From a virus, in IMG/VR virus record IMGVR_UViG_3300030202_000269, positions 8,953 through 31,029 of that record: DNA of 22,077 bases; one strand, given 5' to 3'. The notes under the pieces were generated by a model, which was not told where the DNA came from, made no database searches, and saw only the letters and a program-made list of their open reading frames with translations. Both the position numbers and the translations under genes were made by a program. Shown in pieces: positions 8,302 through 16,909 of this stretch. Each line of letters opens with the position of its first letter. Position 1 is the first letter of the stretch.

Positions 8302-9955
8302 CAAGTACCTCCGAAAGTCTTCCAGTTTCACTATCATACTGTAACCTACAAGCCTTGCCAGTCAAACCCGAAAACCTATTCTTTATAACTCGTAGTGTTG
8401 TTTGATTACGAATTATAGGGTCATCATCCTGTTGGTTACGCTCCAATCCGATAACTATATCAGAAAGTTGAGCGATTGCCGCAGAGCCTCTTAACTCAGA
8501 TAGCGATACTTGTCCGCCCTCTTCGTGTGCTTTACCTTGTGGTCGTCTGAGATGAGAGATAAGGAATAATCCTATGCCCGTCTCTTGGACTATCTTTCTA
8601 AGGTTTGTCATAATTGCGTCAATTGCTTTCCTTTCGTCTAGTATACCATCTTGGTCAGAAACTACAATAGATAAATGGTCTAAAACTATCCACTTACAAT
8701 CGAAAGATTTAGCGTAAGTTCTAATCACATTGAGTAGTGAGTCTTCCGACATACTACCGAAGTGGTCATAGAAGTATACATTCTTGTCGCCTACCGATTT
8801 CTGCCATAGAGCCTTTTTGTCTTCGGGGCTTAACTCTCTCTCATACTGTGGTATGTGAATAGGTGAGTTAGCTTCGATAGACATCAAGCCTTTAACAGTA
8901 CGCTCGATAGATTCCTCTAGGTGAATGATAGCTAGGTTATCGTCAGTCTTATCAAGTATGTATGATTCTAACTCCTTAACAACGCTAGTCTTACCCATAC
9001 CCGAACCACTCGTTATAGTTACCAATTCCTTAGACCTAAAGCCGTAGGTTAGTTTATTAAGACCTGCCCAAGGATAGTCAATATTGACGAGGTTCTCATC
9101 TTTTATAAGATGTTCCCACGTATCCTCACCTTTGACTATTCCCGCAGGTGTGTAAGACTCAGCAGACCACCACGCATTGGTGAACTCTTTAATCTTACCG
9201 TTAATCAACATATCACTAGCGTCTTTCATAGGCAACCTGCAGACCTTTAGCTTACCGACAGATATAATATCCTGTACGTCTTTAACTGCTTGAAAACCTG
9301 CTTGGTCTTGGTCGAAACATAAGACCACATTATCAAAGGACTCGATGTATTCTAAGTTATCTTTGACGTCCCTAGCGGCTGAATTAGCCCCGTTCTTAAG
9401 TGAGACAACCTGCCACTTGCCGTCAAACATTTCGCTCACAGAAAGGGCATCTAGTTCGCCCTCACAGATAGTTAAGTATTTACCTCCCGAACGGTTAGCA
9501 TTCTGCCCGAATAAACCTGCACCTTTATTAGTCCCAATAATTTGAAACTCTTTAGTTGCGACAGTTCTCTCTTTGTAGCCAATTAAGTTATTGCTATCTT
9601 TTGAGTCGTAGTATGGATAGTAGTGTTTGTCTATCTTACCACCTTTGTCGTAGCTTACCGTTACACCAAATTTCTTGGTGATGTTAGAGGAAATCCTTCT
9701 ATCCTTAATCATAGCCCCACTTGTACCTCGTGGTGTTACACTTTGCATAGAATTATTCTCCAAATTAAAATATTCGCTTGTGACATCAAAAGTTAAATGT
9801 TTAACTTTTTTCTCATAGTGACCACAAGCATTACAATAACCGTGTCCGTCAGAGTAGACCGAAAGGTTATCACCTGCTCTGTCCCCACCCGTCTCACGAC
9901 AGGCAGGGCAGGGCTTATGCTCTACAAAAGTAGAGGGGTTATGCGAAGAACTCAC
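8285..9955 (-). CDS. T7 gp4-like primase-helicase
   Basis: 556 aa, GTG start. N-terminal zinc ribbon CPAC...CNAC (Cys16, 19, 41, 44); TOPRIM primase core with ICEGELDAL (Glu165) and CFDQDQAG (Asp215, Asp217); C-terminal RecA-like helicase with Walker A SGSGMGKT (316-323), Walker B WIVLDHL, then LISHLRRP and ELRGSAAIAQLSD, as in DnaB/gp4 hexameric helicases. It would unwind DNA and make primers for the polymerase next door. The GTG lies inside the SSB gene's last codons (17-base overlap) with only GAAGAG upstream, so translation is probably coupled to SSB. A palindrome copy encodes VKHLTF (residues 51-56) in the linker just after the zinc ribbon. Confidence 0.95.
   Translation of the reverse strand: MSSSHNPSTFVEHKPCPACRETGGDRAGDNLSVYSDGHGYCNACGHYEKKVKHLTFDVTSEYFNLENNSMQSVTPRGTSGAMIKDRRISSNITKKFGVTVSYDKGGKIDKHYYPYYDSKDSNNLIGYKERTVATKEFQIIGTNKGAGLFGQNANRSGGKYLTICEGELDALSVSEMFDGKWQVVSLKNGANSAARDVKDNLEYIESFDNVVLCFDQDQAGFQAVKDVQDIISVGKLKVCRLPMKDASDMLINGKIKEFTNAWWSAESYTPAGIVKGEDTWEHLIKDENLVNIDYPWAGLNKLTYGFRSKELVTITSGSGMGKTSVVKELESYILDKTDDNLAIIHLEESIERTVKGLMSIEANSPIHIPQYERELSPEDKKALWQKSVGDKNVYFYDHFGSMSEDSLLNVIRTYAKSFDCKWIVLDHLSIVVSDQDGILDERKAIDAIMTNLRKIVQETGIGLFLISHLRRPQGKAHEEGGQVSLSELRGSAAIAQLSDIVIGLERNQQDDDPIIRNQTTLRVIKNRFSGLTGKACRLQYDSETGRLSEVLDESFF
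9792..9805 (-). repeat. Dispersed palindrome GTTAAATGTTTAAC, copy 3, inside primase-helicase
   Basis: Exact core with AAAA/TTTT flanks (9788-9809), so the symmetric element is 22 bp apart from its central two bases. Coding for V51-K-H-L-T-F56 in the same reading frame as copy 2 in the polymerase gene, although the two proteins are not related here. Confidence 0.88.
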
Positions 9956-12109: not shown

Positions 12110-12241
12110 CTAAAAATTATACTTCAGCTTACGGTGTACCCTGTGGTCTCTCAGCCGTTGCCGTCTCTTTTTGCGTGAGATTTGAACGGTAATACCCCTC
12201 TCTTTGACAGGTATTTTAATTATTTTTCTTGATTGTTGCAT
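12110..12241 (-). CDS. 43-aa highly basic protein
   Basis: Starts MQQSRKIIKIPVKERGITVQ and continues with ISRKKRRQRLRDHRVHRKLK; about two fifths of residues are Lys, Arg or His. GAGG lies 6 bases before the ATG and overlaps the end of the preceding gene; a terminator follows the stop. Such a peptide would be expected to bind nucleic acid, or to act on a host target, but no family is recognised. Without this gene the stretch 11992-12250 would be unexplained. Confidence 0.6.
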   Translation of the reverse strand: MQQSRKIIKIPVKERGITVQISRKKRRQRLRDHRVHRKLKYNF

Positions 12242-13812: not shown

Positions 13813-14325
13813 TTATTCCCCTGCGAAGTTATCGCAGAATACTCTCACATCTGCGACAGTCCTGCCGTGCTTGTCCATCAATTTCATCAACTCTTCTTCA
13901 AATGTCTTTGACTCAGTCTTCTTTGATGGTGTGATGATGACTTTGAATTTTCCTAGGTCATCCTGTGTGAACATTGGGAATTCATCAGAACCAATCATTG
14001 TTGACTTGACCTTTTTTACTGTCAACTTGAATTTCTTGTGACGCTCAGGCTCTTTAACTGTGTTCAGTAATTCCTTTTGTACTATTGGCATTTTAATTCT
14101 AGTTTGTAACTCGCCTTTAATACTTGCCTTGAGTGCTTTGAGTTTGTCACCTGTTAGTGTGTCCATCTGCTCTTCAATTTCTTGAGTTAATGGGTTCTCA
14201 AAATTCTCATCTGTAGCACCTAGTAAAACAATCAAATCTTCTGCGATTGAATCGCCTTTCTTTTGATTGCTCATTAAGTCTTTGATTGTTGCTTGTGCCA
14301 TTTGTTTTTGTTCCGCTTTTTTCAT
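13813..14325 (-). CDS. 170-aa charged early protein, unknown function
   Basis: First gene of the leftward module. Highly charged and mostly helical in appearance: MKKAEQKQMAQATIKDLMSN, an acidic centre (TQEIEEQMDTLTGDKL), then KKFKLTVKKVKSTMIGSDEF and a C-terminal helix with FEEELMKLMDKHG. AAGGA lies 9 bases before the ATG; a second ATG 8 codons in is possible. A sigma-70-type promoter with an operator-like palindrome is directly upstream. No family recognised; early position suggests host takeover or regulation. Confidence 0.7.
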   Translation of the reverse strand: MKKAEQKQMAQATIKDLMSNQKKGDSIAEDLIVLLGATDENFENPLTQEIEEQMDTLTGDKLKALKASIKGELQTRIKMPIVQKELLNTVKEPERHKKFKLTVKKVKSTMIGSDEFPMFTQDDLGKFKVIITPSKKTESKTFEEELMKLMDKHGRTVADVRVFCDNFAGE

Positions 14326-14349
14326 TTTATTTTATCCTTATATAGTAAA

Positions 14350-14363
14350 TGTCAAAATTGACA
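14350..14363 (-). promoter_or_regulatory. Operator-like palindrome TGTCAAAATTGACA
   Basis: Perfect 14-bp inverted repeat between the -10 box and the ribosome binding site of the first leftward gene. Its half-site TTGACA is the same hexamer as the -35 box of that promoter, so it may be an operator or a second -35 in each direction. Confidence 0.5.
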
Positions 14364-14369
14364 CCATCA

Positions 14370-14397
14370 ATAATACCTATATATACTCTAATGTCAA
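14370..14397 (-). promoter_or_regulatory. Leftward sigma-70-type early promoter
   Basis: TTGACA (14397-14392), 16-base spacer, TATTAT (14375-14370), expected start near 14363, i.e. at the TGTCAAAATTGACA palindrome. It would drive the 170-aa gene and the genes after it. Confidence 0.65.
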
Positions 14398-14443: not shown

Positions 14444-14656
14444 TTTTTCTGTAATTGTTTAATAATGTAGCAATATGCTCTGAGAGTCCCAAATTCGCCC
14501 AAATTTGAACGATTGTTCTCTAGCCTAATGACTATATTACTCACCCAATAATAATTGATTTTGATTTCTGAGCCACTTTTTTTCTCTACCCTCTTATACC
14601 TAGTGCTTAAAGATAATCTCTTAAATACGGGCTATTCTTGAGCCTTACAGCTAACT
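14444..14656. other. AT-rich gene-free stretch of the divergent region
   Basis: No supported gene on either strand. It is AT-rich with a short inverted repeat CAAATT-cgccc-AAATTTG near 14490-14510 and a T-run near 14577-14583. It may form the easily melted part of an origin, which is inference. Confidence 0.4.
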
Positions 14657-14713: not shown

Positions 14714-14742
14714 TATTTATACCACAGTATATTAAGTCTCAC

Positions 14743-14841
14743 ATAATGAGACAAGTGTTTCATATAATGAGACAACTACCTAAATATTCTCACTCACGGA
14801 TTCTTTCTTCTCAAATTCTCTTCAGTTCCAAATAATGAGAC
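14743..14841. repeat. ATAATGAGAC, three copies
   Basis: Exact copies at 14743-14752, 14764-14773 and 14832-14841; the first two are 21 bp apart. The first is also half of an inverted repeat GTCTCA-cataa-TGAGAC (14736-14752). The third runs directly into the CTTAGTCCC array. Confidence 0.75.
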
Positions 14842-14916
14842 TTAGTCCCTTGTTAATCCCCAGCTTAGTCCCAAGATTTCTCAGCTTAGTCCCTTACTTA
14901 GTCCCAGCTTAGTCCC
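14841..14916. repeat. Iteron-like array CTTAGTCCC, five exact copies plus one degenerate
   Basis: Exact copies start at 14841, 14864, 14885, 14897 and 14908, and GTTAATCCC at 14852 is a 7/9 match. Steps are 11, 12, 21, 12 and 11 bp, so sites fall near the same helical face. Three copies are preceded by CAG. The array lies between the early leftward and the late rightward promoters. Confidence 0.85.
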
Positions 14917-14923
14917 AATTATC

Positions 14924-14954
14924 ACTTATGCAACTTTTGTTGTACTTATGCAAC
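14924..14954. repeat. Direct repeat ACTTATGCAAC, two copies
   Basis: Exact copies at 14924-14934 and 14944-14954, 20 bp apart, with GTTG between them so that CAAC/GTTG inverted pairs also form. Confidence 0.7.
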
Positions 14955-15107
14955 ATAGGGAGGGACACCCCAAGAGGTTCTTATAATTTTAAATTTAGGC
15001 TCACTCGCAGATGAGAGGGAATTTGGGAAAAATAGCTGTTTACTAGAGTAATTCTAGAAATCTGGAGGTGCGGGGAGGGACTTTAGTAACTTATTTAGAG
15101 TTTACTC

Positions 15108-15149
15108 TTGACTTTTACTAAAAAGTATGCTATAATATTACTATAGATT
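15108..15149 (+). promoter_or_regulatory. Rightward sigma-70-type promoter of the late module
   Basis: TTGACT (15108-15113), 17-base spacer, TATAAT (15131-15136, perfect consensus), then ATTACTATAGATT, with the start expected near 15143. It is a near-twin of the leftward SSB promoter (36 of 42 positions). Confidence 0.85.
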
Positions 15150-15249: not shown

Positions 15250-15648
15250 ATGAGTAAAAAGAATAGAGGTTCACCAAAGTTATACAAAGGTATGCCGTCT
15301 TTAAACCCGAGCGGTAGACCAAAAGGAAGTGTCAATAAGTATACAGCCTTAAGCAGAGAGTTAATGTCTGCAAAAGGTCCTGAGATTGTACAGAGAGTTA
15401 TAGATTTAGCACTCGAGGGTGACAGGACTTGTCTTAAAATGTGTATGGATAGAATCTTACCTACAACTAAGGCAGTAGAGTTAAGGTCACAAGAAGGTAA
15501 GGGCAATGTTGTAATTAATGTTGGTGGTCTTACTGAGAAAGTAATAAGTGAAGATAATAAAAAGCCTTTAGAGTATGAAGAAGGCGTAATAATCTCAGAA
15601 GAGAAAGTAGACGAGACTATTATAAAGATAGGCAAAGGGGATGAGTAG
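15250..15648 (+). CDS. Probable terminase small subunit (DUF5681-type)
   Basis: 132 aa. The N-terminus PSLNPSGRPKGSVNKYTALS is the DUF5681 signature (NPxGRPKGxxN), followed by a helical region with IVQRVIDLALEGDRTCLKMC and MDRILPTTKAVE, typical of small DNA-packaging proteins upstream of TerL. It would recognise phage DNA for packaging. AAGGAG lies 5 bases before the ATG; the stop overlaps the large terminase start by 8 bases. The C-terminal ~40 residues are acidic and may contact TerL. Call supported by motif plus position. Confidence 0.72.
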   Translation: MSKKNRGSPKLYKGMPSLNPSGRPKGSVNKYTALSRELMSAKGPEIVQRVIDLALEGDRTCLKMCMDRILPTTKAVELRSQEGKGNVVINVGGLTEKVISEDNKKPLEYEEGVIISEEKVDETIIKIGKGDE

Positions 15649-16909
15649 AGAGTTAGACGTCTCGCTACACCCGGCGCAGTTAGAAATCTTTAATAGTAAG
15701 GCAAGATTTAAAGTAGTAAGTGCGGGAAGACGCTTTGGTAAGTCTAGGTTAGCAGCTTGGATATTAATTATTAAAGCACTACAGTCGGAAGATAAGGATG
15801 TCTTTTATATAGGTCCTACCTTCCAACAAGCTAAAGATATTATGTGGGGTATGCTGAAGGAATTACTTCAGGATACAGATTTAATAGAACAGACCCACGA
15901 GAATACAGCTACTATGACTTTAGTCAACGGTAGAAAGATTAGCTTAAAGGGGAGTGACAGACCGGACACGCTGCGCGGCGTAGGATTGGCATATGTGGTC
16001 CTCGACGAGTACGCGAGTATGAAGGTAGAGGTGTGGGAACAGATTATAAGACCTACGCTTGCAGATGTAAAAGGTGGTGCGTTATTTATTGGTACGCCCG
16101 CAGGTAAGAACCACTTCTACGATATATGGAAAGAAGCGGATGATGAAAAGAATGAAGATTGGGAAGCATTCCAGTTTAATTCTACAGATAATCCGATATT
16201 AGACCCTGAAGAGATAAAGGTAGCTAGGGAGACTATGTCTACCCAAGCCTTCAGGCAAGAATTTGAAGCTAGTTTTGTCTCTTTTACTGGTGGTATATTT
16301 AAGCAAGACTGGATAAAATATGACACAGAAGAGCCAAAAGAAGGGAATTACGTTATTGCGGTTGACCCGGCTGGCTTTGAGAAGGTTGAAAAGGAACGTG
16401 GTCTTAAAGGGAGTAAACTGGATGAAACAGCTATATCAATCGTTAAAATCAACAATGATGAATGGTGGGTCAAAGATATACTCCACGGTAGATGGAATAT
16501 TAAACAAACTGCTTCTAAAATATTACAGGCTGCAATTGAAAATCAGGCAACTATTGTCGGAATAGAAGCCGGAGCTTTAAAGAATGCCATACTTCCTTAT
16601 CTAGAAGATGAGATGAGGGCACAAAATAGATGGGTAGTCATAACAGATGTAACCCACGGTGGTAAAAAGAAAGCAGATAGAATTACTTGGGCTCTACAAG
16701 GTAGAATGGAGCACGGAAAGATTTCCTTAAATAAGGGAAATTGGAATAGAGCCTTTGAATCACAGTTATTAGAGTTTCCTACAAGCGGAACACACGACGA
16801 TATGGTGGATAGTCTCGCGTATATAGACCAAGTGTCAGTTGCAGATTTTATGCACACTATAGATATTGATGAGGATTGGCAACCTTTTGATGAAGTAGCT
16901 GGATATTAA
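15641..16909 (+). CDS. terL: Terminase large subunit
   Basis: 422 aa packaging motor. Walker A-like VSAGRRFGKSRLAAW (residues 27-41) matches the GRRFGKS form of TerL; Walker B AYVVLDEYASM; a coupling-like FIGTPAGKNHFYDIW; then the RNase H-type nuclease domain beginning VIAVDPAG, with later acidic residues (GIEAGALK, THDDMVDSLAY). TerL cuts concatemers and pumps DNA into the prohead through the portal encoded next. The length is closer to P22-like TerL than to T7 gp19 (586 aa), though the other genes are T7-like. Confidence 0.95.
   Translation: MSRELDVSLHPAQLEIFNSKARFKVVSAGRRFGKSRLAAWILIIKALQSEDKDVFYIGPTFQQAKDIMWGMLKELLQDTDLIEQTHENTATMTLVNGRKISLKGSDRPDTLRGVGLAYVVLDEYASMKVEVWEQIIRPTLADVKGGALFIGTPAGKNHFYDIWKEADDEKNEDWEAFQFNSTDNPILDPEEIKVARETMSTQAFRQEFEASFVSFTGGIFKQDWIKYDTEEPKEGNYVIAVDPAGFEKVEKERGLKGSKLDETAISIVKINNDEWWVKDILHGRWNIKQTASKILQAAIENQATIVGIEAGALKNAILPYLEDEMRAQNRWVVITDVTHGGKKKADRITWALQGRMEHGKISLNKGNWNRAFESQLLEFPTSGTHDDMVDSLAYIDQVSVADFMHTIDIDEDWQPFDEVAGY

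Follow-up and report, generated by a model that had tools for sequence, protein, structure and literature searches.

Phased nine-base-pair sites between divergent gene blocks of marine phages match a paired site in bacterial Fic-like_C genes

A helically phased array of the nine-base-pair site CTTAGTCCC lies between two divergent gene blocks of an uncultured marine phage, and the same site is found as a pair in bacterial genes for the winged-helix domain Fic-like_C (PF21247). The phage sites almost certainly form a functional protein-binding array. With modest confidence, we favour the reading that they are sites for a host Fic-like_C protein, used by the phage as a regulatory platform or as a decoy. 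The window, that is the whole stretch analysed, has 22,077 nucleotides and covers positions 8,953 to 31,029 of the IMG/VR virus record IMGVR_UViG_3300030202_000269. The sequence-only reading had described five exact copies of CTTAGTCCC and one 7/9 copy with steps of 11, 12, 21, 12 and 11 bp, all in the same orientation, and this description was borne out. The array is non-coding and lies in an intergenic gap of about 920 bp:

14841..14849, plus strand: site 1, exact CTTAGTCCC; its first base overlaps the palindromic GTTCCAAATAATGAGAC element
14852..14860, plus strand: degenerate site GTTAATCCC, a 7/9 sequence match
14864..14872, plus strand: site 2, exact CTTAGTCCC
14885..14893, plus strand: site 3, exact CTTAGTCCC
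14897..14905, plus strand: site 4, exact CTTAGTCCC
14908..14916, plus strand: site 5, exact CTTAGTCCC

When the intergenic region was resampled by a Markov model with its dinucleotide frequencies preserved, 3 of 3000 runs gave five copies of any 9-mer within 100 bp; the comparison with relatives (see below) is stronger evidence. No exact CTTAGTCCC was found in the window outside the array, and a scan of the whole 31,029-base IMG/VR record gave no second array; all array matches of the 31-kb record are concentrated in one intergenic region. No Rfam match rose above chance, and a DNA-level search of isolate phages gave no match. A literature search for the 9-mer and the linker peptides (see below) returned no relevant paper; the 9-mer search was swamped by primers and is hence weak.

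Related phages were collected by a scan with the terminase large subunit (TerL), which gave 80 loci of 83-99% identity. The 24 distinct arrays in these relatives contain 105 exact 9-mers, no copy with one mismatch and four copies with two mismatches. A purine always precedes the site, and the next base is T, A or rarely G. The spacers vary from genome to genome, the 14-bp spacer TTGTTAATCCCCAG at the degenerate site being found again in L001 and L051, and the copy number ranges from 2 to 7. Steps of 11, 21 and 12 bp predominate, with a Rayleigh R of 0.84 at 10.5 bp (p ~1e-16; the phages are related, so the steps are not fully independent). In three genomes (L014, L108, L114), the array is inverted. 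Because an invariant 9-mer is combined with 10.5-bp phasing across related phages, we read the array as a conserved protein-binding array, most naturally one in which, as proposed earlier, a single protein binds along one DNA face.

The leftward gene block encodes DNA polymerase A, helicase-primase, endonuclease I and ribonucleotide reductase, and the rightward block encodes a putative terminase small subunit (TerS), TerL, an SU10-like portal, scaffold and capsid. The nearest isolates are pelagiphages by the polymerase (48%) and HMO-2011-type phages by the portal (~25%). The label 'T7-like' given to the phage earlier suits the DNA polymerase and the helicase-primase but not the SU10/HMO-2011-like portal, and inspection of the ORFs in the 31-kb record revealed no phage RNA polymerase. 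The array is surrounded by the following features:

12110..12241, minus strand: 43-aa basic protein, the candidate binder of the sequence-only reading
13813..14325, minus strand: first gene of the leftward block, 170 aa, no family
14370..14397, minus strand: predicted leftward promoter-like site, TTGACA-16-TATTAT
14736..14841: second repeat family, palindrome-like GTCTCACATAATGAGAC, copies at 14736, 14757 and 14825; also in L005, L012, L049 and L068
14782..14822: block A, AAATATTC.CACTCACGC.CTCTTT, left of the array, recognised by eye; retained in array-less relatives
14924..14954: third repeat, two copies of ACTTATGCAAC at a distance of 20 bp
14958..14971: block B, GGGAGGGACACCCC, with GGGGAGGCTCA as its second allele, a candidate packaging or origin core; the GC skew flips nearby
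14990..15029: block C, TAGGCTCACTCGCAGATgagaggGAATTTGGG
15108..15136, plus strand: predicted strong rightward promoter of the sigma-70-like type, TTGACT-17-TATAAT with TG
15250..15648, plus strand: putative TerS (DUF5681), from its position before TerL
15641..16909, plus strand: TerL

One relative (L010) has no copy of the site, yet its flanking genes are kept (TerL 92% and TerS 98% identical to the window), and its next three genes to the left are 94, 82 and 89% identical. The array is also missing in L044, L046, L058, L060 and L065, and the array-less clades within L044 to L069 have a TerS that is 97-100% identical to that of the array-bearing L051 and L068. At the same place, other genomes carry substitutes that are phased at 11 bp, CTGTTGTGTCG in L018 and CACTCAGGTGT in L075, or that consist of a 21-bp unit (L080) or of TGTTGTATTTATACTACA-like units of ~20 bp (L008, L013). 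The TGTTGTATTTATACTACA-like units, with steps of ~20 bp also in L063, are related to the third repeat ACTTATGCAAC, and the substitute repeats of array-less relatives include TATTCTTAAGTAGTACCTGAT besides CACTCAGGTGT and TGTTGTATTTATACTACA. No phased repeats were found at the array position in L044, L046 and L058. The L018 substitute CTGTTGTGTCG had a single match, with 2 mismatches, in 369 gammaproteobacterial genomes. Blocks A, B and C remain in the relatives without the array. Judged from these comparisons, the array is gained and lost as a module among phages.

A scan of 84,980 bacterial and archaeal genomes for the pair CTTAGTCCC-N2/3-CTTAGTCCC gave 92 loci. At 74 of these (73 and L181, counted with a profile built from those same loci), the pair lies within ~220 bp upstream of a Fic-like_C domain on the same strand, in the linker coding sequence before the winged helix. 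Pfam independently names Fic-like_C in 9/9 proteins tested, and each of nine genomes tested had one array match, at the locus from the genome scan. The other 18 loci are close to the chance expectation of ~15, an estimate from sequence length alone. This bacterial match was not visible to the sequence-only reading, whose binding-array part was supported and whose origin part was not. Since no Fic-like_C gene was found in 34 viral records, including that of the window, the presumed binder would be a host protein. The phage array and the in-gene site are probably the same DNA element and not a coincidence. Most steps in the phage arrays measure 11 and 21 bp, those in the Fic-like_C gene arrays mainly 11 bp, and the purine before every phage site is not kept in the host genes.

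The larger Fic-like_C proteins are composed of AlbA_2/Schlafen, HATPase_c_4 and Fic-like_C, in one case with DUF4062 replacing AlbA_2. In addition, Fic-like_C has a match to the C-terminal part of PDB 4rgl and a weak one to HTH_45. Many of the genes have a longer array, GGGAC(T/C)AAGTN per 11 bp, that is read through three frames and yields the 11-residue peptide GTKSGLSRDQV; in the third frame, GGGACTAAG would give a stop and GGGACCAAG is used instead. Genes of this kind occur in many phyla (L160-L251, e.g. L213, L225 and L181), with the 11-bp repeat GGGACTAAGTN just before the winged-helix domain coding for the peptide repeat in three frames. In a motif-blind sample of 200 Pseudomonadota genomes (L269-L298), the linkers carried other DNA repeats of 12, 21 or 36 bp, the 12-bp ones encoding TDQV, TPQV and TEQA. 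Repeats before the Fic-like_C winged helix are thus common in the family, and the repetition within the genes could come in part from selection at the peptide level.

The constraint on the DNA was analysed in the Thioglobaceae (SUP05/Thioglobus), where homologues were gathered by protein from 63 of 83 genomes. Thirty loci were fetched, 20 of which have the peptide GxKxGL(S/R)..H. The codons GGG ACT AAG nnG GGA CTA are invariant in 20/20 of these genes. A single codon was used at 4/4 site residues, compared with 0/22 of the other conserved residues that have four or more codons (p 7e-5). Since the site codons are invariant in genes that had been selected by protein, the DNA itself is constrained in this family. 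In the more distant members L321, L322 and L327, the sites are degenerate. At three Thioglobaceae loci examined, the gene encodes a stand-alone protein of 131-139 aa downstream of an amino-acid ABC transporter. A stand-alone Fic-like_C gene is conserved downstream of the aap amino-acid transporter genes in Thioglobaceae (L299-L319); in L185 and L194, a Fic-like_C gene is close to nrdA.

We propose that a host Fic-like_C protein, for example the 132-aa Thioglobaceae protein, would recognise GGGACTAAGNNGGGACTAAG and probably also binds its own gene via the paired site in the linker. The phage would keep the sites in its switch region, where the leftward replication genes meet the rightward terminase and structural genes. 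As a platform, the sites would place the host protein between two promoters in a regulatory role, as CtrA on alphaproteobacterial phages. As a decoy, they would titrate the host Fic-like_C protein. Both the binding of the array by Fic-like_C and its effect on the phage are what we infer from the sequence comparisons. More tentatively, Fic-like_C proteins across phyla may bind phased arrays in their own coding sequence, and marine phages may have captured the site and now exploit or disarm the host protein. If the site was captured, the gain, the loss and the replacement of the array by other phased repeats would reflect host switching.

For the host, we infer a Fic-like_C-bearing marine gammaproteobacterium such as a member of the Thioglobaceae; a SUP05/Thioglobus-like host is suggested solely by the distribution of the perfect site among marine bacteria. 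The phage TerL was absent from 83 Thioglobaceae genomes, which is uninformative for a lytic phage, and a tetranucleotide host test gave correlations of 0.28-0.48, which had no usable controls and were set aside. A relative of the portal (L329, 58%) is located on a 4.9-kb contig in a gammaproteobacterial genome bin, in which no CTTAGTCCC array was found. It is possibly a hint at the host or a contamination.

The sequence-only reading had taken the array for an iteron-type replication origin, where a phage or host initiator binds cooperatively and opens the nearby DNA. Phased invariant sites and adjoining repeat families of ~20-21 bp would suit such an origin, as would the lack of a visible phage RNA polymerase for T7-type initiation. 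The intergenic GC-skew minimum also falls in non-coding DNA at or near the right edge of the array (~14934), next to block B, with the nearest strong rightward promoter 170 bp further on; this would be expected near an origin or a DNA end, but the skew is confounded with gene direction. In the relatives, the cumulative minimum is usually at or near block B, and the switch point may indicate an origin or a DNA end nearby. However, blocks A, B and C and the skew switch persist without the array, which is therefore not needed for the switch point. Absence of the array from a close relative with the same gene order had been named in advance as evidence against an origin, and this is what L010 and entire clades show. 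In agreement with the earlier remark that no initiator gene is evident, none was found by Pfam or PHROGs in the proteins scanned from the incomplete 31-kb record. An accessory, host-matched element fits the dispensability, the inversion and the variable copy number better than an essential origin, and we regard an iteron origin as unlikely.

The sites might instead be operators for a regulator of the phage left arm, such as the 43-aa basic protein. Among the left arms, 9/12 with the array and 0/10 without it encode this protein (Fisher p 0.0005, a count that ignores phylogeny and hence shared ancestry), but the array-bearing L016, L020 and L022 do not have it, and the match to the Fic-like_C genes would be left unexplained. 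We hold such operators to be quite unlikely. Much less probable is a packaging site with TerS-binding repeats as in lambda cosB. The array lies upstream of terS and adjoins block B, a conserved element with alleles that seem to track the TerS type; TerS is, however, 100% identical in the array-bearing L051 and L068 and the array-less L046, L058 and L065, and the TerS of the window is 98% identical to that of the array-less L010. Since TerS is identical with and without the array, it is not a dedicated partner of the array and was rejected as such. Packaging is thereby largely refuted for the array, while block B is still a packaging candidate. A non-functional tandem duplication would agree with the varying copy number, but no single-mismatch copy stands beside the 105 exact ones though the spacers differ, and the phase is maintained despite insertions. 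This difference between sites and spacers refutes a duplication, to which we give hardly any credence.

For the favoured reading, binding by a host Fic-like_C protein, several known systems can be compared. The iterons of the lambda O origin are palindromic and lie inside gene O, the gene of their own binder. Plasmid iterons and the lambda O origin share the phased direct repeats with the phage array, and the in-gene Fic-like_C arrays resemble the lambda O origin in having the sites inside the gene of the presumed binder. In contrast, the phage array is intergenic, dispensable and invertible, with no initiator gene found. The R sites of lambda cosB are bound by TerS and are likewise short repeated protein sites near terS, whereas here TerS is the same with and without the array. 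The Fic-like_C genes with repeats in their linkers have the same 9-mer pair at 11 bp; theirs is in bacterial coding sequence upstream of the winged helix, whereas the phage has an intergenic array of sites only. In alphaproteobacterial phages, CtrA sites are concentrated in a large intergenic region, and their binding and regulation have been shown experimentally (PMC9437464). The likeness to these clusters (PMC9437464) is that many sites for a host-encoded regulator, a presumed one in the present case, are gathered in one phage intergenic region. Here, the factor would be an uncharacterised Fic-like_C winged-helix protein, and the sites are head-to-tail 9-mers phased at 10.5 bp.

If our proposal is true, an abundant uncultured marine phage group would be linked to a specific host DNA-binding protein, and the array would give a sequence-based hint at phage hosts. 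In the widespread Fic-like_C family, found on Schlafen/AlbA_2-HATPase proteins as well as Fic proteins, the DNA of the linker forms a phased repeat array in its own right, an unexplained feature with nucleotide constraint seen in one bacterial family. In-gene arrays bound by their own product would, if true, be an undescribed autoregulatory architecture.

Sites were also seen in other phages. In a different phage group (L094, L096, L106, L122, L144), a cluster of five CTTAGTCCC sites with steps of 27, 11 and 15 lies beside a primase-like gene. Further arrays occur in L105/L124/L157, L098, L145 and L158; of all these arrays, those beside the primase-like gene included, some are likely due to chance. 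Many contigs of relatives (L011, L017, L031, L032, L043, L045, L071, L078) start ~780-825 bp upstream of TerL; such breaks in or near the array are consistent with assembly failure at the repeats, and physical ends are possible. Block B has two alleles, GGGAGGGACACCC and GGGGAGGCTCA, that appear to track the TerS type and make it a candidate packaging site. A hairpin-like block, GTCCCAAATTCGCCCATATTTGGAC (14487-14510), located towards the left of the intergenic gap, is conserved in relatives. Directly downstream of the leftward promoter is the palindrome TGTCAATTTTGACA (14343-14365), with GTCACCGGTGAC in its place in array-less relatives, and both are possible repressor operators.
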